Assembly: GCA_016858145.1 (NCBI GenBank) | Contig: JAEHOE010000006.1 | Location: 1,240,001 to 1,304,000, forward strand | Source of the DNA: Edaphochlamys debaryana | Taxonomy: Eukaryota > Chlorophyta > Chlorophyceae > Chlamydomonadales | Direction: 5' to 3' | Length of the DNA: 64,000 nucleotides | Shown here: positions 14,989 to 27,588 of the stretch, one piece after another | Layout of the letters: every line of letters starts with the position of its first letter | How positions within the stretch are numbered: position 1 is the first letter of the stretch | Made by a program: the position numbers and the translations under genes | The notes under the pieces: generated by a model | Databases searched by the model: none | Seen by the model: only the letters and a program-made list of their open reading frames with translations | Told to the model about the DNA's origin: nothing

Positions 14989-17126
14989 GGATACGTAGGG
15001 GTACGGACGGACGGGGGCGTACGCGCGTTTCTGACCGGTGGGAACGGGCCCCGTTGCCAGCCCGTACCACACCGAACGGTTGGCAGCACACGGCACGTGG
15101 CGGCGGGTTGAGGTTCAAGTGGGGCGCGTGCGATTTGGGGGTTGGGGGCATGACTAAACGCTTACAGGCGATCAGGGCCGCTTGAAGTCACCCCGCGAAC
15201 CTGCCGCCTGGCGCTTACCTGCAATGGGGGGAGGATGTCAGGCGGGGGGCCCATGCCCGTTGGGCTTGGGCAGAGGGGTCACAGGGCCTCGACAGGTGTA
15301 CATACGGTACTGGTACAGAGTGCTGGTTGGTGGGTGCTGGGTGCTTGATGTAGGGGGAGCACCGCGGAAGCCGTGTCCTGCCTGCAACCCCGGACGTTGG
15401 CGCGGCAGGGCGATCTGTGCAATGGAATTGCCAAACGGGCGGTCGGTTCCGCAGCAGACGGGTGGGCACTTAGAGGAGGTAGCCTACGTTGCGGCCTTGT
15501 ATGATATGTGGGTACTGTGTGGTGATGGTGGGCACTGGAGGGCGCCTGGCGGCCGTGTGACAGGCGCTGCACAAGCGGCCGAGGTCGTCTCCCTCATGGG
15601 CAAAGCGGCTGGGACAGGGGTACTCTGACGGGAGCGCGGGCACTGCCCTTGCCAGTGCAGGGAGCACCGGGAGCTGTGCGGCAGTGCAGGGCGCGTGGAT
15701 CGGCCTCGTGTGGGCTGTGAGGATGCACTTGGGTGCACCAGGCGGATGGGTATCGAAGGAGGTTGTCGCAAGGGTCTGCCGGTGGGCAAGGTGTGAGCAG
15801 CCAAGTGTTGGGAGCAGGAGCAATACTACGGGATCGCAGGGAGGACGTGCGAGGACGTATGTGCGAGGGGTAGGCAGGGAGGACAATGCGAGGACGTGGG
15901 GCTGAGTTGGATGGGAAACTGCGGAAAGGGAGAGAGGTCCGGCGGTCCGGCCCTGAAGATGTGTGAGGATTAAGACAGGCAGGCTGGGAACTGCCGCGCT
16001 ACATGTAAAAGCGCCAGCCGCGCACCGTGTCAACCGCTCACAACACGTGCACTTCGGGCGCCACCGGTCGGCCACACCAACATCACCGCCTGAAGCGAGA
16101 GGGACACGAGCGGCCCTGTCCCTTTCGCGCGCAACCCCTGCGACCGGTGGAGCAGTGCAACTCCTCCGTCGTCCGATGCTACCCCTCCACACCTGCCCCA
16201 CACCTCTCGGACCAACCCTCTGCGCGGGCCCTTGCCGTGCGCGTGAGGGCCGCCCGAGCCACGCTCCACACCTCTCGTCCGGCCTACCTCACATCTCAAC
16301 CTACGTACAGCCGCTAGGCCGGCCCCTGCGCACTAAACACGTGGAGCTTGCTTTATGCAGCCACTACCGTTCCTGTGGCCTGCGCTTCCTCGGCCTCTAG
16401 AGCAGCCCTTACCACACGACACGGCACACTACGATAGCGCTTTTGGGGTCCAGGCGCCTCGGGTCCACGCGCCTCCCACCAGCACCGCCTAGCACCTCCA
16501 TCTGGCACCGCCACCCGCGTCCGCAGCATCCCGCAGCCCCGCAAATTTCTCGCCCTCCGTCCGCACAAGGCCTGCCGGATGCCACTCACGCCCTGCTCAC
16601 CGCCTGTCTATGCCCCGCCCCCTGCCCCCACGGCACCGGCCATCAGCGCACAGCACACGCCGTCGGTCTCGTCCGTCCTCCGCCGTCGCCCTCTCCTTCC
16701 CTCCGCCGCGGCCCCCTTCGGAGGCGCAGGGCATACATGAAGCATACCCCAGGACGTTGCCGCAGGAAGCGCGAGAAGAGGCGGCGCCGGGGCCCCTGCC
16801 GGCTCTCCCGCTAGCGCACATCCGCGGCGCTAGGAGTCGCACGCACCCGCCGCTGCCCGTGCCTCGCCGCCTCCCTCCGGGGAGGCGCAGCTCGGCTCCC
16901 CCACCCCGCAGACGTCGCCATTGCACTGACCGCGGCCGACCCCGGCCCCACGCCTGCGCTGCGACAGCCGCCCGACGGTCGGGAGCCCCAGCTCCTCCGC
17001 ATGCCCAACTTCCCGTCCCCTCCTCCTCCTTCCTCCGCCTCCCCACCCTCGTTGCTCCCCCTCCACCGCACCTCCAAATCCCCCGCCTCCGCCGCCTCCG
17101 CCTCCCCCCCTGCCGGCCTCCGCCCC
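14989..17126. other. Convergent intergenic region between DnaJ-type gene and RPB2
   Basis: No supported gene. It must hold the 3' untranslated regions of both neighbours. A TGTAA word on the plus strand at 16003-16007 could end the DnaJ-type transcript. Around 15838-15898 a short run repeats GAGGACG/GAGGACA words. The minus-strand frame 16201-15470 shows no recognisable domain. Confidence 0.45.
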
Positions 17127-20100
17127 CTACTTCTCGAACTGCATGCGCGGGGCGATGCACATGGCCATGAGCTCCTGGAACAGCAGCTTGCAGGCGTAGG
17201 GGATGAACACCTGGGAGGGGGGTGGATGGGTGGGAGGGTACCGGTAAGAGGTAGGAAGAGGAACGTGCCGGTGTGCATGGCGGGAAAGCGACATCCTCTT
17301 CAGCCCTGCCCCACTACTTTTACAGGGACTCGCACACTTCCACCCCCCCCCCCCCACGACCACCCAACCGCCCCCGCCCCCAACCACCGCACCCCTCCCC
17401 CCCTACTCCTCGCACCTGGTAGATGTTGGAGCCGTCCTTGTAGATGGTCGACGTGAACTGCTGCTTCTTGAGGTTGGCCACCGCGATGAGCCCCGAGCGC
17501 TCGCACACGTGGATGCGGTAGGCGTCCGACTGGTCGAACAGGCGCTCCTTGAGAAAGGCGGCGGAGCCGTGCGAGATGATGCTGTTGGGGGGGGGGAGGG
17601 GAGGGGGGGGAACGGCGCGGGTTGGTTGGGGTCCTGTCATCATCCTTGACCGGGCAAAATGTAAGCCCCATCAGCTCCCCCAGGCCATGCTCTTGAAGGT
17701 GCCAGGTTAATTCTCGGACGCTGCTGTGCGACTCACCAGTCGCGCTCCATCTCGCCGAAGCTGTTGGGGGGTGGGGGGAAGGGGGGGAGAGGGATTGGGT
17801 GGAGTGGGGATGGGGAGGGGTGCGCATGGGGAGGGGTGCGGGATGGGAGTGGAAGGCGGTGCTGTGGTGATGCGGCGTCCCCGGCCCCACTGGCCGCCTC
17901 CACAGTGACCCCCACCCCCTCCAGGGCGCTCACCGCAGGCCTCCGTCCCTGGCGCGTCCCTCCGCGGGCTGGCGCGTGAGCACCTGCACCGGCCCCCGCC
18001 CGCGGGAGTGGATCTTGAAGTCCACCATGTGCTTGAGGCGCTGGGGGGGGGCAGGGACGGAGGAGGGAGGGGGAGGGAGGGCGGGAAGTGCGTTACTGGT
18101 GCAGCGGGACAAGACCGGGATCCGGCGTTCAAGGAGTAAAGCTGCATATGTCGCGCCGACTTGCACAGCTACTTGTACAGCTGCTGCTATCGCGTAGTCG
18201 CGCGCAGATTAAGGTCGGTGCGACCGCGAAATGTTCGGCATGCCGACACCCCGACCATGCACGTCGCGCCGACTTGTGCGCGCAGCGAACATGTCGACAG
18301 CCTGACCTCGCTGTACTCGCTGTGCGGCGTGCTCATTCTACACAAGCTACATAATGAGCAGAGCTCTTACGCCGCGCGACCGCGACCGCGGCCGCGAGGC
18401 CCAAACGTGTGCCCGAGAATGTCGGCATGTCAGCATGCCGGCCGGCCGACCTCGCGCGTCGCGCCGCCACGAGCTACCGCCTAATACCTCAGCTGATACA
18501 ACTTCAGCACACCTAATGGCATATCCGTAGCTCCTTTACAGCAGACGTGCCGCGCCGGCCTGCAGCCGGTTTCGCACCTGGTAGTAGGTCGGGTTGAGGA
18601 AGATCTGCGCCTTGACCTGCCGCCCTGTGTGTCCGCTATACATGACCTCCCAGCCTCGGCGCTGGTAGCCCAGGTCGTGCAGCATCTGGGACACATTGTC
18701 CACCGTCACCTGGGGTGCGGGGGGGAAGGGGGCGAGGGGTGGTGGTGGCGGGGTGGGACGGATTGAGCGGCGGTAGGTGTAAGGGCAAGGAGCGCTATTC
18801 GGGGGCAGTGTCGGGGCAGATGACCCCCAAAGCTCGCGAGGCCAGTGCCCCCAAGCTCGCACCTTGGTGAAGGGCGTGGCGTCACCCTCGGAGCCCATGA
18901 GCGAAGCCACCTGGGGGGGAAGGCGGACAGGTGGATGAGGGGTGGTGTGAGGGTTGGGACGGGGGGCGTCAAGGGTCAACGCCGCGGCAAGTAGGCCAGC
19001 CCAGGCGGCACGCAGTGCGCCTTGCCTCTCTCCCTAACCCTCCCCCTTTACCCCCCTCCCCCTCCCCCCCTCCCCCACCTTGCTCATGAGCGCCTCCACC
19101 AAGTGCCCGATGGTCATGCGCGAGGGAATGGCGTGCGGGTTGACGATGATGTCCGGCACGATGCCCTCGGCCGTGAAGGGCATGTCCTCCATGGTGTACG
19201 TGATGCCGCACGTGCCTTTCTGGCCGTGCCGGGAGGCGAACTTGTCGCCCACCTGCCAGGGGGGAGAGGGGGAGGGGGAGAAAGGGGGGGAGGGATGGGT
19301 GAGGGACGGGGGAAGATCGCGTGGTGAGAACGGCGTGGGGGTGGTCGGGCTGGCGGCTGCTGGCCCGGCGGCGGGCCCTCCTTGCGTCTTGCACCGGGAC
19401 CGGGCGCCCTGCCCCTGCCTTGCCTTGCCCCCGCCTCCACCCCCGGCCCCCTGCGGCCCCACCTGCGGGATGCAGATGGTCCGCACCCGGATCTTGACGA
19501 ACTTCTGGCCCTCGTCGTTGGTGGTCAGCATGACCTGGGGGGATGGGGAGGGCGGTAGCGTGTTCGAAGCTGAGCGGGATCGCGTCGCCTGGGCCAGGGA
19601 AGCATGGTCTGCTTGGGCGGGGCTGGACCGCGGCGGACGGCCGTGATGCAGGGCGTGCGGTGCACTCCACACTCACAGGCCACGAGGTACGCGAGAAGCT
19701 GAGGCACGGCGCGTGCCAAACCCCCCAACCTTTCCCCCGCTACCCCCCCCCCACGCACCTGGTCGATCACGCCCGCCTCGTGCCCCCTCAGCGCCAGCGA
19801 CGCGTCCTTCTTGGTGTGGCGCTGCACCGCCCCCGTGGGGTCGTCCGGCAGCTGCACGGTCTTGCCGCAGATGATGTCCTCGCCGGACACACGCGTGCCT
19901 GGGGGGGTGGGGTGGAGCGGGTCAGTGGTTTGGGTGGTTTGGTTTGGGTTTGGGAGGTGTGGGTACTGGCTTCCGGCGACCCCTGCATTACAGTGACCCA
20001 AGACCCAAGACCGCGCGTTGCCTCCCCCCTCCGCACCAGCCCCCCTCCCCCCACCCACCCGGCGGCACCAGGCCGTCCGCGTCCAGCTTGTCGTACGTGC

Positions 20101-23100
20101 CGTGCTTCATCTTGGCCGTGATGGAGGGGTCGGGCGCCTCGATCTCCTCGCGGGCCATCACGCCCGACTTCTTGACCTCCTCCTGTGTGTGTGGGGGGGG
20201 GGGGCAGGCAGGCGGGGGCGAGGGGCGATGACTACCGTACGAGGGTGAGAACTGCTGCTTGACCCGAGGTCGGGCACTGGCGAACGGGTGCAGGCCGGCC
20301 GGCTGCTCGTGTTAGCGGAGGCGAGGGCTGGTGACCGGGGTGAGTGCCTGGGCGCCAGCCACGGCCGCGGCGGACCGGCCGAGTTCCCCGTCTTCCCCAC
20401 GCTGCGCTAGCCGTCCGCCCCACCCCACCCTCGCCTCCCGCCGGCCCGCCCCCCTCCGCCCCACCTTGTAGGCGCGGTAGAATATGGACCTGTGGAAGCC
20501 CCGGTCGATGGACGAGCCGTTGAGCATGAGCGAGTCTTCCTGGTTGTAGCCCGTGTAGCACATGATGGCCACGATGGCGTTGATGCCTGGGGGGGGGGGG
20601 GGAGGGTGGTGGTGGGTTGAGGGGGAGAACCGAGGTATGGAGCAGGGGGCCGGCGAGGGCCAGAGCCAGAACTGTGGCGGCAGCTTGCGAGCACTTGGCG
20701 TGCGCTCCAGGAGATGGGCGTGTGCAGGCCCCTCTCACGGTGAGCGCGGCTCTTGACATGATGCCCCAGGAGCCCATGACCCCCCTCGCCCCCTTCCCCC
20801 CCTCACCCCCCACCTGCAGGCAGCTCCCTGAACTTGAGGTAGTCCATGGCGCGGGTGCACACCAGCGGCTTCTGGGGGTAGTACAGCACGAAGCCCTGGG
20901 GGGAAGGAGGGAGGGGAGGGGGGGAGGGGGGAGGGAGGTGATCTGGGCGGACTTGTGCTACTCCGCTAATGCTGGGAGGTCGAGGCCGCATTGGTTCCCC
21001 CCCCCATCAAGCAGGATACCTGGCCTTCCCTGCCCTCCTCGACGGCCCCTCCCCTCCCTGCCCCCCCCAACCCCCTCTCCCCCCACCTGCGTGTCCATGC
21101 GTGTCTGGTAGTTGGTGCAGTACATGCCCATGGCCTGCTTGCCCATGGCGGACTGGGGGGGGAGGGGGGGAAGAAGGCGGTTCAGGTTATGTTGGGAACT
21201 GAGCGGGATCGCGATGAAGAGGGAAGGCGGCTGTTTCACGGCAAGGCGAGATAGGGCAAGGCACCTCGCCAGCCCCCCGTATCCTTTCGAGGTCTACAAA
21301 CTCCCCTTTCCCCCTCTCTCCCCTCCCTGCCCCCCCACCTGGTACGTGTTGCGGGGCGACTGGTTGTGGTCGGGGAAGGGGATGATGGAGGCGCACACGC
21401 CCAGGATCATGGCGGGGTGGATCTCGCAGTGCGTGTACGTGGTGCCCGTGGCGGCGCCCGCCTCGCGGGCGTTACGCAGGTCGGCGATGGTCATGGCAAT
21501 CATGGTCGTCTCCTCCTCCTCCGCGTCGATGTACCTGCGGTTGGCGGTTAGTGGTTGGTTGGTGGTTTGCTTATGGCCTGCAGTGCAGGCCCTACACACG
21601 CGCTTCAGCCCCCCGAAACCGCTGCTCCGCCGCCCCAATCACCGGCTCCGTGAGAATCCACCCCAGCCCGCTGGGCGCCCTCGCCCCCCCACTCACTCCA
21701 CCAGGCCGTCCGCCACCAGCTGCGGCCACGCGTACTCCTCCTCATCGGGCGCTGGGAGGGGGGGGGGGGCGGAGGGAGGGGTGTAAGAGTCGCATTGAAG
21801 CATTGGAAGGCCCTGGCCGTCTCCTCACGGACTCCGCTCTCCCGCCTCTCGGCTCCCCTGGCATGGCGCCCCCGCCCCCCGCCTCCACCACCCGCCGCCT
21901 CCACCCCACCCTCCTCCCCAGCCCCGCCCCCACCCGGGTTGATGAGCCTCCGGATGTGGTGCTTGGACACCAGCAGGCGGTTGCCCTCCACGATGTAGAG
22001 CGGGCGGGAGGTGCGGCCGTAGTCGGTGAAGATGCGCAGCTCCTTGAGCGGGCCGTCGTAGATGATGGACACCTGGGGGGGGAGGGAGAGGGGTAGGGGA
22101 GGTGAGGGTGAGAGAACTGAGAGGGATCGCACCCACTCGCCGGCTGGGCCTTCCCACGGCTCCGTCGCCGGTCTGCCCCTTCCAACCCTTCCCTGCCACC
22201 CCAACCGTGTAACCCCCGGGGTCGTCTTAGCCCTCCTTGCCCCGCTCCGTTGCCCAAGCTGTCAGGGCCCCCCACAAACCCGGCTTCCCTCCCGCTCCCC
22301 ATACCCCAATCCTCACCTCCGTGCTGAACGCCACCTGCCGCCGCATGGCCCTCAGGTTCTTGATGAGGGCGGTGGGGTCGCGCTGGATGCCCAGCCACAC
22401 ACCGTTGATGAACACCTGGGCGCGGAGGGGTGAGCGCGTGAGGGGTGGTCATTAAAGTCGTTGGAGAGCAGAGGCAGAGAAGGAGCACGGGATGGGACGG
22501 CGGCAGGAGTCAGGCCGGCGGGGACAGGAAGCGGGACACCCCGCCCGCCCCATCCCCCGAGCCCAGCCGCCGCTCCCCGCCCCCGCCCTCCATCCCCCCC
22601 CCCTGCCTGCCCCCCGGTCCACGTCCGCCCCTCCCCCCACCTTGGTGCTTGCCGCGATGTCCGCGGGCGTGACCTCGTCCAGCGCCTCCGTGTTGAACTC
22701 CTCCAGGTGGGCCACCACGGGGAGGGAGGGCGTGCCCACTGGGGGGGGGGGGGGCAGGCGTGGGATGGGGTGGGGATCACGTGTCAGGATGGACGGTGTG
22801 AAGAAGCCATACGCCCAGACGAATCGGCTTCAAGGGGCATCCCCACTTTCGCCTTTCTCTTGATGCGCTGGAATGAGACTCAGCCGGCCCGTCGCTCCTG
22901 CCTACACCCCCTCCCTTCCCCTCCCCCCCCACCGGTGATGTAGCACATGAGCGCCATGTTCTTGACCAGCCCCACGGCCTGCCCCTCGGGCGTCTCGGCG
23001 GGGCAGAACATGCCCCACAGGCTGTTGTGCAGCTGCCGTGGCTTGGCCAGCTTGCCCTCGCGCCCGATGGGCGAGTTGACGCGGCGCAGATGGGAGAGCG

Positions 23101-26100
23101 TGGAGGCGTAGGTGAGGCGGGCCAGCACCTGGGACACGCCTGGGGGGGAGGGGGGGGGAGGGGGAGGGAGGAGGGGGGGAGGAGAGGGAAGGGAGTTGGT
23201 GGAGAGCAGGAGGATCGCGTCGCGCCGTCACGTGCTGGGACTTGGTCGTCCGCGCCCGTACCACACCGGCATCGCTGTAAAGCCCGGCCGGGGCATCCGG
23301 AAAGGCCCGAACGGTCCCATGCGGGCTCTGGCCCCGCACCCTCGCCCTGCCTCCCCTCCCCCACCCCTCAACCCAGCACCCCCTCACCTGCTCTGATGCC
23401 CTGCTTGCCCTGCTCCCCCCAGTTGCCGGTGGCCAGGGAGTACTTGAGCCCCCGCGTGATGACCTTCTCGTTGATGGCCGACAGCACGTTGATCTCCTTG
23501 CCCGCGTCCACCTGGGGGCAGGGGGTGAGGAGGGACAGTCAGGTGGACCCAGCCGGCAGCTGCGTCAGCCACTCGTCGGGCCCAGGCACCACACCCGTCC
23601 GCTCCCCCTCCACATCCCTCTAGCCCCCTTGGGGTATCTCAGACAGGCGGCAGCTGGACAGGCAGTGGGGGCCGTCCCCGTCCCCGTCGTCGCCCCCCTT
23701 CAGACCAAATACCCTAAGAGCCCCTAAGAGCCCCGCTTCGTCCCCCTCTTTTCCCCCTCTCCTCCCCCACCCCCCACACTTCCTCCCCCTCTCCTCCCCC
23801 CTCCCTCCCCCCACCATCTTCTGCGCCTGCATGCGCATCTCCTTGCACAGCTTGCGGAACAGCAGCCGGAACAGCCCCGCCAGCAGCGGCCCGCCCAGGT
23901 CCAGGCGCTTGTTGGCGTAGTGGTCGCGGTCGTCCTCGGCGCGGCGGCCCAGGGCCACCAGCATCAGCCTGGGGGGGGGGGGGGGAAGGGGTAGGGGGGA
24001 GAAGGCAAGGGGGACAGGGGAGGGGCTCTTGTTGCTGAGCGGTATCGCGTCGCCGGCGCCAGGGACGCTGTGCTTGTGGAGGTGCATACCGCCGCCGGGC
24101 AGGGGCGGCGGCCAGCCGGCCAGCCCGGACGGCGGGACGGAACTAGGAAGGGGATTGGCCCAGCCCAGCCCAGCCACACCCCAACTACAACCCCCACCCC
24201 CCACCCCCCCACCCACCCCACAGCCACCTGTGCACCATGTACCCCACGAAGTACCCCTTCCGCGTCTCCATGAACTCCTCCGTGCCCAGGTGCGGCAGCA
24301 GCTCCTTGATCAGCAGGTTGCGGGCGTACTGGATGCGGTCGGCCTGGGGGGGGGGGTAGCAGAGGGGTGCGTGGGGCGGGGAGAGGGGGTTAGGAGAGAT
24401 ACGGCGTGGAGGAGGAGGCCTTGCCCGCGTGCTACCTGCCGCAGGGCTGCACCAGAGCACCGCGCACCTCCACGCCCCTGCGTGAGCCTCCCTGGCCTCG
24501 CGGACCGCGACCGCCCGCGGAGCGTTACCTCTGTCCCCTGCCCCTCCCCCTTCCCCATCCCCTTCCTCCCAATCCCCACCTTGCTCGCTCCCGTGACCGT
24601 CCCTCGCTTGCCCAGGTAGTTGAGCGCCTCCTCCTGCGTCTGCACCTCCTGCGCCTCCTCCACGCTCGCCCGCAGCGCCTCCAGCATGGCGGGGTCCGCA
24701 TCCAGGTCGTACACGATGTGCTCCAGGATGTCGCGGTCGGACTGGGGGGAGGAGAGGGGAGAGGAGGAGGGAGGGGAGGGGGGAGGACGCAGAGGGGGGC
24801 AGGGTTGGGTATGGACCGGGACGCGTCGTGTGCGAGTCCGCGTGGAGCTACCCTAGCCAGCAGTTAGCGGGGAAAGGGGAGAGGCGCAGACCCTTGGAGC
24901 TCAGCTCGTCAGAGAGCCGCAGCGGAAGGTGCTCTCACCTCGACCGGGCCCCCTCCCCACACATCCCACCCCCACCCCGCCCCTACCCACCACGAACCCC
25001 AGCGCCCTGAACAGGATGAAGATGGGGAACTCGGCCCGGATGTACGGGATCTGCGCCCGGATCACGCCCGCCGCGCCCGCCTTCTTGCCCTTGGCCAGCA
25101 TCATGATGGACATGGAGGAGGCGGAGCGGGTGGAGCCCTCCACCACGGACCTGTCAGGGGGGGGAGGGAGGGTGGGCGGTTTTGAAGCTGATAAGCGGTA
25201 GGGAGGGGGAGTGGCGGAAGTCATACAGGACGCAGGCTTCCGGAGGACGGAGGGAGAAGCTGCATATATATGCATAGTCAGCCACACAGACCTCGGCCCC
25301 CTCGTTTCCCCATGGCATCCAGACCCCACACACCTGTGCCCAGGCCCCAGCGCCCCAGCTACGCCGCCCCCCAACACACGCACCTGATCTCCGCGCAGAA
25401 GGTGTACTTGCTGGGCTGGCTCTTCTTGAAGACGTACACGTGGTTGTTGGCCATGCGCTCCTGCGCGATGAGCACCTTCTCGGAGCCGTTGATCACGAAG
25501 TAGCCGCCCTGACAGGGGGGGGAGGGGGGGGGAGGCAGGGTGGTGACTAAGCGAAAGTACCGTGGGAGCGGCAGGATAGGGTGCTCCTCGAGGGTGCTCC
25601 CTGGGCCCACCGGCTGCCCATGCCGGCAGCAGGTGCCCCGGATCGCCGCCCACTCCCTCCTCGGCACAGCCCCCCCCCCCCGCGGCCCCCCTCCCCGCCT
25701 CCCGCCCCCCCCACCTGGTCGTACGGGCACTCCCCCAGGTTGGTGGCCTCCTGCTCCGTGGAGGCCTCGTGCAGATTGCAGCGCTCGGACTTGAGCATGA
25801 TGGGCACCTGGGGGTGGGTGGGTGAAGGGGGGGGGTCTGGGTGCCGGGGGTGCCGTGATGGGCCTGTGGGGCTGCGGCCTGCAGCGCTGCTCGCATACGG
25901 CCTGCGGTCCTCTCCGAAGGCCGGATCGGCAGCCGGGCCGCCACCAGAGTCATGTGCACCCCGGCGACGGCTGCTGCGGGTGCCATGTGTAGACCATAAT
26001 TTTTTTCGCGAGTCTAGGGGGGTCCCAAAGCTGGGGCCCAGCGGGGCCCGACAGGGCCTACACCAGGCCCACGCTCCTCTGTCCCTTCGTTGGAGCCCAT

Positions 26101-27588
26101 GCCAGAGCCAGGCCCACGCTGCCCTCCCTCCGAGGTCCCCAGGTGCGCCCTGGCATGCTGGGCGCCGCGACACCGCTGGGCCTGCCGCCCCCACGGGCCG
26201 CCCATGACAGCCGGTGCCCCTGTCTCCACGCAAGCGGGCTTCCCAGTCCCTCCCACCCGCCAGTGCGAGCGCGCCGAAACACACGAGCCGCATGGCCGGT
26301 TTGTAAATTGAGGCTCCCCGACCTCCCTTCCCCTTTCCGTCCCTCCCGCGACTCAGCAGTCAGCACCCGTGCCCTCCTGTCGCTCTGGACCTGAGCACAC
26401 CGGGCTCGAGCGCCGCAGCTCCAGTTAACCCCTTCCAGCCCCTGTGTCCAGCCCCATCCCCGCACCTTCCCCAGGCCGCCCGCAGTCGACGCACCGCCAC
26501 CCCTACTTGACGCTCTGGAACAATCTCGAACGGCCTTGCCCTCTCTCCCGCCGCTCCCGCCCCCCGCCCCCGCCTCCCGCCCCCGCCTCCAGCCCCCCCC
26601 CCATAGCCCCCCCCACCTTGCCCAGGTGCACGTGCTGAAACACCTCCTGCTTCTCCTCCACGCTGTCGTCCGACATGCGCGTGTACTCCGTCTTAGTCAC
26701 GTCCACGTACAGCGGCGCGCAGTAGCTGCGGGCGGGTGGACGCAAGGGGGTTGGGAGCAGGGTTGGTGGGGGGCCGGCTGCGAGATTGGGGTGGCCATGT
26801 CTCTCGCGATCTCAGTGCCAGCAGCTCTGTGCAAACGCGCGGGGACATGGGCGCGCCGTAGCGGGTACGCGGGAGGGCGGCCAGGGCGCCAGCTCCCGGC
26901 CTGATGCCCGGCACTGCTCCCGTCCGGTGCGCCTGCGCCTCCCACGTGTCCAACCCATCCCCCCGTTACAGGCGGGGCTCGGGTGGGGAAATGCACTCCC
27001 AGTGTCAATAATGCTGGGCCGTCGGGGCCATGGCGCGCCGTATGGGGCACGAGAGCAGGGATGCCCGCTGTTGTTCTGCACGCCCACCCTCCCTTTCCCC
27101 TTCCCCTTCCCTCTGCCGCAGGGCCCCCTCTGCCCTTGCGCCCCTTCTGTCGACACCTGTGTGGATTCCCCGCGCCCCCCAAGGGCTGACAGTGCCAGCG
27201 CCAGGGCCCCCCCGCGCACACGGGTAGCTCACGTCAGGTTGCGCAGGCGCGCCTCCTTGGGGAAGAGCACCACCGACTCCCCATCCTGCTCCGTGATCTG
27301 AGGCCGGCTGAGGTACACCTGCCCGAACTTGATGATGTACTCCTTCTCCTCTGCGGCGTCCACGCCGGGGAGGTGCTGGGATTCGGGTTTAATGACGATT
27401 TCGGGCGTCTCGTCGATGATTTCCTGGATAGTGACGTTCACGAACTCGTTGAACGAGTCCAGCTGCTGACGGACAAGGCCCTTGTCGTCGAAGAACGCGG
27501 AAATGACGTTCCACGAGTCCTCCTGCACAATCTCGTCGTCCTCCTGCTCCATCGCAACCTCCATATGGTCCTCATCTGCTCCGTACAT
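17127..27588 (-). CDS. RPB2: RNA polymerase II second-largest subunit RPB2
   Basis: Nuclear mRNA-synthesising polymerase, half of the active-site cleft. Exons: 27588-27233, 26725-26617, 25807-25715, 25508-25384, 25150-24991, 24741-24590, 24344-24228, 23968-23815, 23511-23388, 23139-22933, 22738-22641, 22415-22317, 22072-21934, 21751-21697, 21534-21339, 21152-21087, 20895-20814, 20586-20465, 20182-20059, 19898-19759, 19534-19463, 19252-19079, 18910-18863, 18709-18578, 18040-17934, 17760-17737, 17581-17416, 17210-17127. The sum is 3525 bases, 1174 residues (yeast 1224, Arabidopsis 1188). Family blocks are visible throughout: [88 protein letters not shown] (active-site lysines) and [17 protein letters not shown]. 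The acidic N-terminus [20 protein letters not shown] is typical of the Pol II form. The C-terminal zinc ribbon is degenerate (see findings). All 27 introns are GT-AG. Confidence 0.97.
17405..17581 (-). other. RPB2: Degenerate zinc-ribbon exon of RPB2
   Basis: Encodes [19 protein letters not shown] then [13 protein letters not shown]. The family pattern is HVCxxCG...FxCxxC. Only the first cysteine is present; the second is serine and the CxxC pair is absent. Flanking blocks ([14 protein letters not shown] before, [15 protein letters not shown] after) are intact and in frame. Confidence 0.9.
17737..17760 (-). other. RPB2: 24-base microexon of RPB2
   Basis: Encodes the core of FGEMERDC between exons 18040-17934 and 17581-17416. 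It is flanked by CAG and GTGAGT splice sites and needed to keep both phase and the universally conserved block. Confidence 0.9.
18140..18480. repeat. Repeat-rich insert in an RPB2 intron
   Basis: The 531-base intron 18577-18041 carries sequence unlike the G/C-tract introns around it. A 14-base word occurs at 18150-18163 and again at 18263-18276, and GCATGC-centred near-palindromes are frequent. It may be a worn small mobile element. Confidence 0.4.

Follow-up and report, generated by a model that had tools for sequence, protein, structure and literature searches.

Apparent ancient loss of the zinc-binding cysteines from the RPB2 ribbon of RNA polymerase II in Chlorophyceae and Bryopsidales

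The RPB2 gene of the green alga Edaphochlamys debaryana encodes a C-terminal ribbon in which three of the four zinc cysteines are replaced. Cysteine-held zinc normally braces RNA polymerase II (Pol II), and the zinc sites of this enzyme are usually regarded as fixed elements of its fold. We consider it highly probable that this gene, the sole cellular RPB2 found, carries a ribbon that lost its zinc long ago and has since been kept as a metal-free module. The gene lies in the window, by which we mean the whole stretch of 64,000 nucleotides analysed, and a lineage look-up places its source species in the Chlorophyceae, Chlamydomonadales.

Rebuilt from the minus strand (27588..17127), the gene has 28 exons and 27 introns in a single frame of 1177 codons plus a stop. 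Its features are:

17127..27588, minus strand: RPB2 gene, 28 exons, 27 of 27 junctions GT-AG, frame open
17416..17581, minus strand: RPB2 exon 27, C-terminal ribbon with three of four zinc cysteines replaced (HVCERSG ...)
17127..17210, minus strand: RPB2 exon 28, conserved C-terminal segment and stop
17503..17505, minus strand: ribbon ligand 1, cysteine kept, C1121 (TGC)
17494..17496, minus strand: ribbon ligand 2, changed to serine, S1124 (TCG)
17449..17451, minus strand: ribbon ligand 3, changed to serine, S1139 (TCG)
17440..17442, minus strand: ribbon ligand 4, changed to tyrosine, Y1142 (TAC)

The initial annotation had described the absence of three of the four ribbon cysteines, a 28-exon model that closes cleanly and a replacement of equal length, and all three descriptions hold: every junction is GT-AG, the frame is open to the stop, and the ligand positions 1121, 1124, 1139 and 1142 fall within it. 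The exon had been placed at 17405..17581; the 17581 end stands, and the 17405 end lies 11 bases inside the intron, the exon ending at 17416. The window protein thus has Cys, Ser, Ser and Tyr where a C-terminal zinc ribbon has four cysteines. On its remaining sequence features the gene is an RPB2, with a ribbon predicted not to bind zinc.

This identification is supported by an alignment with Chlamydomonas incerta RPB2 that covers 100% of the query at 96% identity. Among solved structures the best relatives are Pol II RPB2 proteins, with residues 1-1174 forming one continuous match to mammalian RPB2 (5flm_B, 1545 bits, against 765.5 bits for Pol III RPC2, 7a6h_B, and 386.2 bits for Pol I RPA2, 7ob9_B). 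No CxxC occurs in the three minus-strand frames of 18040..17000, so no cysteine-bearing alternative exon is hidden there, and the recurrence of a Cys-Ser/Thr-Ser-x pattern in 24 database proteins indicates that the window ribbon is not a product of chance. Assembly error is ruled out by the same ribbon in other species, some of them transcriptome-derived; P0006, P0008 and P0026 give MMETSP as their source, and the identifiers of P0064 and P0122 presumably denote transcriptome assemblies, as they resemble such accessions. With signs of artefact absent, the cysteine loss is confirmed at the level of sequence.

The distribution of the ribbon was surveyed in 183 distinct database RPB2 proteins drawn from two protein searches (the best 120 of 7985 and the best 120 of 2013), a sample skewed to green plants, the second search being aimed at the zinc-less ribbon. 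We aligned 182 of them, not counting the window protein; P0083, with too little sequence past the anchor, was left out and on separate inspection has four cysteines. All four cysteines are present in 158 aligned proteins and the other 24 read Cys-Ser/Thr-Ser-other, with no intermediate state among the 182. The earlier statement that four cysteines occur in essentially all eukaryotic RPB2 proteins was too broad. Within the 24, ligand 2 is Ser in 22 and Thr in two, ligand 3 is always Ser, and ligand 4 is Tyr in 19, His in two, and Asp, Ala and Trp in one each.

The 24 zinc-less proteins comprise all 11 named Chlorophyceae (Chlamydomonas incerta, C. leiostraca, C. eustigma, Astrephomene, Haematococcus, Sanguina, Dunaliella, Monoraphidium, Tetradesmus, Polytomella and Chromochloris, as which we read the identifier Chrzof), both named Bryopsidales (Ostreobium and Bryopsis) and 11 entries without a species name (P0004, P0007, P0008, P0011, P0015, P0064, P0106, P0122, P0123, P0128 and P0170). 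Four cysteines are kept in the Trebouxiophyceae Myrmecia, Coccomyxa, Micractinium, Chlorella, Elliptochloris, Symbiochloris, Apatococcus, Auxenochlorella, Nannochloris and Helicosporidium, as well as in Tetraselmis and the sampled land plants. The lineage assignment of five species comes from a look-up, and the ulvophytes identified by name in the samples are Bryopsidales only. Comparison with related algae, which the initial annotation had proposed, thus returns the same ribbon type in every named chlorophycean. Its presence in all named Chlorophyceae and Bryopsidales argues that the loss of the RPB2 ribbon cysteines is ancient and lineage-wide.

A separate peculiarity is seen in P0086, P0087 and P0101, which have adjacent cysteines (FECCKNP..ER) and a changed spacing at the last two ligands, the last of which may be displaced; the alignment counts these proteins among the 158 complete ribbons.

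The RPC2 subunit of Pol III has changed in a similar way. RPC2 of E. debaryana also lacks the ribbon cysteines (FEVHVDARSGLLGWWDAARACPVSPLDKSS, with identical letters in database entry P0184). Among 119 aligned RPC2 proteins (the best 120 of 6455 without P0252), four cysteines are present in 83, the fourth alone is missing in 22 (replaced by Thr, Leu or His), and 14 read Asp-Ser-Ser-Asp/Thr. The 22 look trebouxiophyte, judging from their named members. The 14 consist of 12 chlorophycean-looking rows (eight named or identifiable by identifier, and four others), Bryopsis P0237, and P0235, which is nearest to Bryopsis (70%). This make-up indicates that the RPC2 cysteines are lost in the same groups as those of RPB2, perhaps stepwise. 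The lineage-specific loss of metal suggested at the outset is therefore supported by sequence and extends further than was claimed, to Chlorophyceae plus Bryopsidales, with RPC2 matching.

Some trebouxiophyte-like RPC2 rows, including P0195 and P0197, have an extra upstream cysteine (CAVC), by which a CxxC might be re-formed in a different register, and many zinc-less RPC2 rows have CAVS at an apparent relic of this motif.

Pol I of E. debaryana is spared, as judged from its conserved motifs: RPA2 keeps VCTCCG and VCPAC, and RPA1 keeps CATC...CPGHFGH and CTCLHC. The cysteines seen in the Pol III subunit RPC1 are likewise kept.

Further Pol II subunits were read in this one species. RPB1, on contig C1, was identified by its heptad-repeat tail (16 YSP[TA]SP in the frame starting at C1:1219423) and its NADFDGD site (NADFDGDEM in the frame starting at C1:1213271). 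Its clamp region reads ICTTDASNANDSPGYFGH, CVSYHTS and then CQGKKLDEATGNPQP, the corresponding stretches of animal RPB1 being CQTCAGNMTECPGHFGH, CVCFFCS and CKGKNICEG...CGRYQP. The first clamp site is C, D, S, Y, with one of four ligands kept, and the second is S, T, D, T, with none kept; the two sites of animal RPB1 are Cys3His and Cys4. Both clamp zinc sites are thus lost, and the initial annotation was right to propose a comparison of RPB1 clamp residues. The genome yielded only three largest-subunit loci (on C1, C7 and C8), with no sign of a second RPB1. The gene on contig C44 resembles RPB3 more than AC40/RPAC1, scoring 205.5 bits against plant 7eu0_C (subunit 3 of polymerases II, IV and V) and 210.6 bits against 8hil_C but at most 96.6 bits against RPAC1, and it has no cysteine at the position of the Cys4 zinc loop of plant RPB3. 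For RPB1 and RPB3 of other species, two scans of viral_contigs turned up no relative.

The first ribbon of RPB9 has Thr at one of its four cysteines and its second ribbon is intact. Cysteines are kept in RPB10 and RPB12, in three other TFIIS-type ribbons and a BRF1-type ribbon, and in ribosomal RPL37A, and the zinc ribbon of the two TFIIB-type genes (contigs C172 and C316) looks complete across two exons. Spt4 had no match in the E. debaryana genome at E <= 1, a search that a short intron-split gene could escape. Taken together, the sequences suggest that Pol II of E. debaryana has shed several of its own structural zinc sites, the RPB2 ribbon being one of them. A 2005 study (PMC1326215) reports that Chlamydomonas RPB1 sits on a long branch relative to those of other green algae and of plants, a result consistent with an altered RPB1 but no proof of it.

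We propose that the ribbon zinc would have been lost in an ancestor of at least Chlorophyceae and Bryopsidales, with the second cysteine of RPB2 becoming Ser or Thr, the third Ser and the fourth mostly Tyr. Several structural zinc sites of Pol II would have turned metal-free with their folds retained, and RPC2 would have changed likewise. In the yeast structure, the RPB1 clamp zinc sites pack near the RPB2 ribbon; because these nearby sites are also gone, the clamp base appears to have been rebuilt as a unit. The ribbon, probably without bound zinc, most likely still seats the RPB2 C-terminus on the RPB1 clamp.

As to why the metal was given up, the algae might have saved zinc by dropping non-catalytic sites of an abundant enzyme, an explanation that we regard as unlikely. 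The joint loss of several Pol II-specific sites in E. debaryana speaks for such thrift, but RPA2, RPA1, RPC1, RPB10, RPB12, the TFIIB-type genes and RPL37A (the sole ribosomal zinc protein examined) retain their cysteines, and ribosomes contain far more zinc than Pol II. With the Pol I subunits, RPC1 and RPL37A all unaffected, general thrift is a poor explanation, and as the cause we favour a relaxed constraint specific to Pol II together with RPC2, which might involve, for example, a shared assembly or clamp partner.

The substituted residues could instead form a new ligand set, with Asp, Ser, Thr and Tyr holding Mg or Ca, or with fewer ligands holding zinc. The Asp-Ser-Ser-Asp/Thr letters of RPC2 and the Asp residues at two RPB1 ligand positions would suit this proposal, but position 4 of RPB2, with five different residues among 24 proteins, varies in a manner unlike that of a ligand, and Ser and Tyr are weak metal ligands; we regard such a ligand set as very unlikely.

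Less probable still is that the ribbon no longer works and merely drifts. The variability of position 4 and the greater divergence of P0006, P0026 and the Ile/Lys/Asn-rich P0170 would be expected of drift, but over a 37-residue ribbon block 22 zinc-less rows share a mean pairwise identity of 0.74, near the 0.77 of 11 named zinc-bearing Trebouxiophyceae, and ribbon length is preserved in every zinc-less RPB2 except P0006 and P0170, which were left out of the block for their length. Since the two identities are so close, the zinc-less ribbon is, on this measure, not decaying. Over the same block, the two Bryopsidales share 0.70 identity with nine of the 11 named Chlorophyceae (those used in this cross comparison) and 0.58 with the 11 Trebouxiophyceae. 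The last 85 residues are 74-91% identical to Ostreobium in 18 zinc-less rows outside Bryopsidales, some of them lacking a species name, and about 71-78% identical in zinc-bearing trebouxiophytes; these ranges overlap and alone are not proof of constraint, and the 37-residue block was used for this reason.

Conservation equal to that of the zinc ribbon in a sister class thus supports a retained metal-free module, whose fold is most likely kept through side-chain packing and hydrogen bonds. For the C. eustigma RPC2, which is zinc-less, AlphaFold2 predicts four strands within or next to the ribbon, at 1094-1100, 1108-1110, 1115-1117 and 1127-1133, with pLDDT of 86-87 over 1101-1130 in a model that is moderate as a whole (64.4). 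VIA-align comparison of this model is whole-chain, with rmsd of 22-38, and is uninformative on the ribbon; it shows a likeness of the entire chain to second subunits of polymerases, with RPC2 ranked first. For RPB2 itself the model is too poor to be of use, with a mean pLDDT of 56.7 and ribbon blocks at 55-63.

The initial annotation had allowed that this locus could be a second, divergent RPB2. That possibility, or a pseudogene, with an intact copy doing the work, is scarcely credible: a cysteine-bearing RPB2-type gene is present on contig C163, but it is intronless, lies in 10 kb of 59% GC against 69% in the window, has its RPB2 reading divided between two frames and is only 42% identical to the window RPB2 in the region compared, while the window gene is intact and nearly identical, as given above, to that of another species. 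This reading was rejected on these features and on the loci of the genome, in which no second cellular RPB2 was found and the further RPB2-type loci are RPC2 (C42), RPA2 (C38) and the C163 gene.

The C163 reading itself (C163:192292-197171) runs through two overlapping frames and has an intact cysteine ribbon. Because it is intronless, has 59% GC and is read across two frames, it resembles a fragment of an endogenous giant virus.

We further asked how often the zinc-less ribbon arose, using RPB2 trees built by a quick method from alignments without the ribbon and all columns after it. In a 42-row tree the zinc-less label requires three changes rather than one, and five long rows were flagged. 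For a second tree, nine rows were dropped (P0170, P0158, P0026, P0002, P0019, P0129, P0086, P0032 and P0062), three of which were among the five flagged. The resulting 33-row tree places 16 zinc-less rows on one side of a branch with weak support (59), and a single clade of 15 zinc-less rows (without P0128) is not rejected (p-AU 0.478); this tree is not an independent test, because the nine rows were dropped after the 42-row result had been seen. A single origin would be the simplest reading, which one gene does not settle. In an independent phylogenomic study marked by strong conflict among gene trees (PMC8941102), Bryopsidales join Chlorophyceae with full support in concatenation and weak support in coalescence analysis, and its 884 gene trees divide among Bryopsidales with Chlorophyceae (36%), Bryopsidales with other Ulvophyceae (28%) and Chlorophyceae with other Ulvophyceae (36%).

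One zinc-less protein, the protist RPB2 P0170, is an MMETSP transcript of 1070 amino acids with the ribbon HICEKSGLIGFSNLKNQIFWSKIW. Its Ile, Lys and Asn content is extreme, with a FYMINK/GARP ratio of 2.85 against 0.96-1.16 in the 12 others measured. The best matches are Viridiplantae at about 42%, in a comparison set that is itself almost all Viridiplantae, and its branch length of 10 in the 42-row tree is too long for placement. Sequenced nucleomorph genomes are described (PMC8887012, PMC4822330) as highly AT-rich, with six examined nucleomorphs encoding their own Rpb1, and a further study (PMC5784168) groups the chlorarachniophyte plastid with Bryopsidales in plastid phylogenies while treating the plastid donor as uncertain. 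P0170 is possibly the RPB2 of a chlorarachniophyte nucleomorph.

A broader scenario is plausible, if doubtful on balance: in the ancestor of Chlorophyceae and Bryopsidales, Pol II may have lost all structural zincs of its large subunits (two in RPB1, one in RPB2 and one in RPB3), so that most of its remaining zinc would sit in the small subunits; RPC2 would have followed, and the chlorarachniophyte nucleomorph would have inherited this polymerase. If the ancestral loss and the nucleomorph reading are true, the ribbon is a rare discrete marker both for the placement of Bryopsidales, a hard node, and for the uncertain green-algal donor of the chlorarachniophyte plastid, on which it may bear. That RPB2 and RPC2 have both lost these cysteines, whereas Pol I in the one species read has not, suggests a constraint common to Pol II and RPC2, and a lineage that includes the model alga Chlamydomonas and lacks several Pol II zincs would make the roles of these zincs testable. 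None of the openly licensed papers listed in our literature searches mentions zinc loss in green-algal Pol II in its title or the opening of its abstract.

Compared with the canonical zinc ribbon of plant and animal Pol II RPB2, the algal ribbon has the same position, length, flanks and first cysteine, and differs in the replacement of three of four cysteines. In bacteria, cysteine-free paralogues of zinc-ribbon ribosomal proteins (C+/C- pairs) work metal-free, and these C- forms are likewise zinc ribbons without cysteines that function without metal; they are, however, paralogues for zinc shortage, whereas the algal form is the only cellular copy found and appears lineage-wide. A parallel within the polymerases is AC40, the Pol I/III counterpart of RPB3, which is described as being without the zinc loop of RPB3 (PMC13374769). 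The loop is absent as in the algal RPB3, but AC40 is a separate paralogue and the algal loss is in RPB3 itself. Similarly, S. cerevisiae C34 is reported to be without the 4Fe-4S motif of human RPC6 (PMC8837262). Here too a structural metal centre next to the clamp is absent in one lineage, as in the algae, although the subunit and the metal are different.
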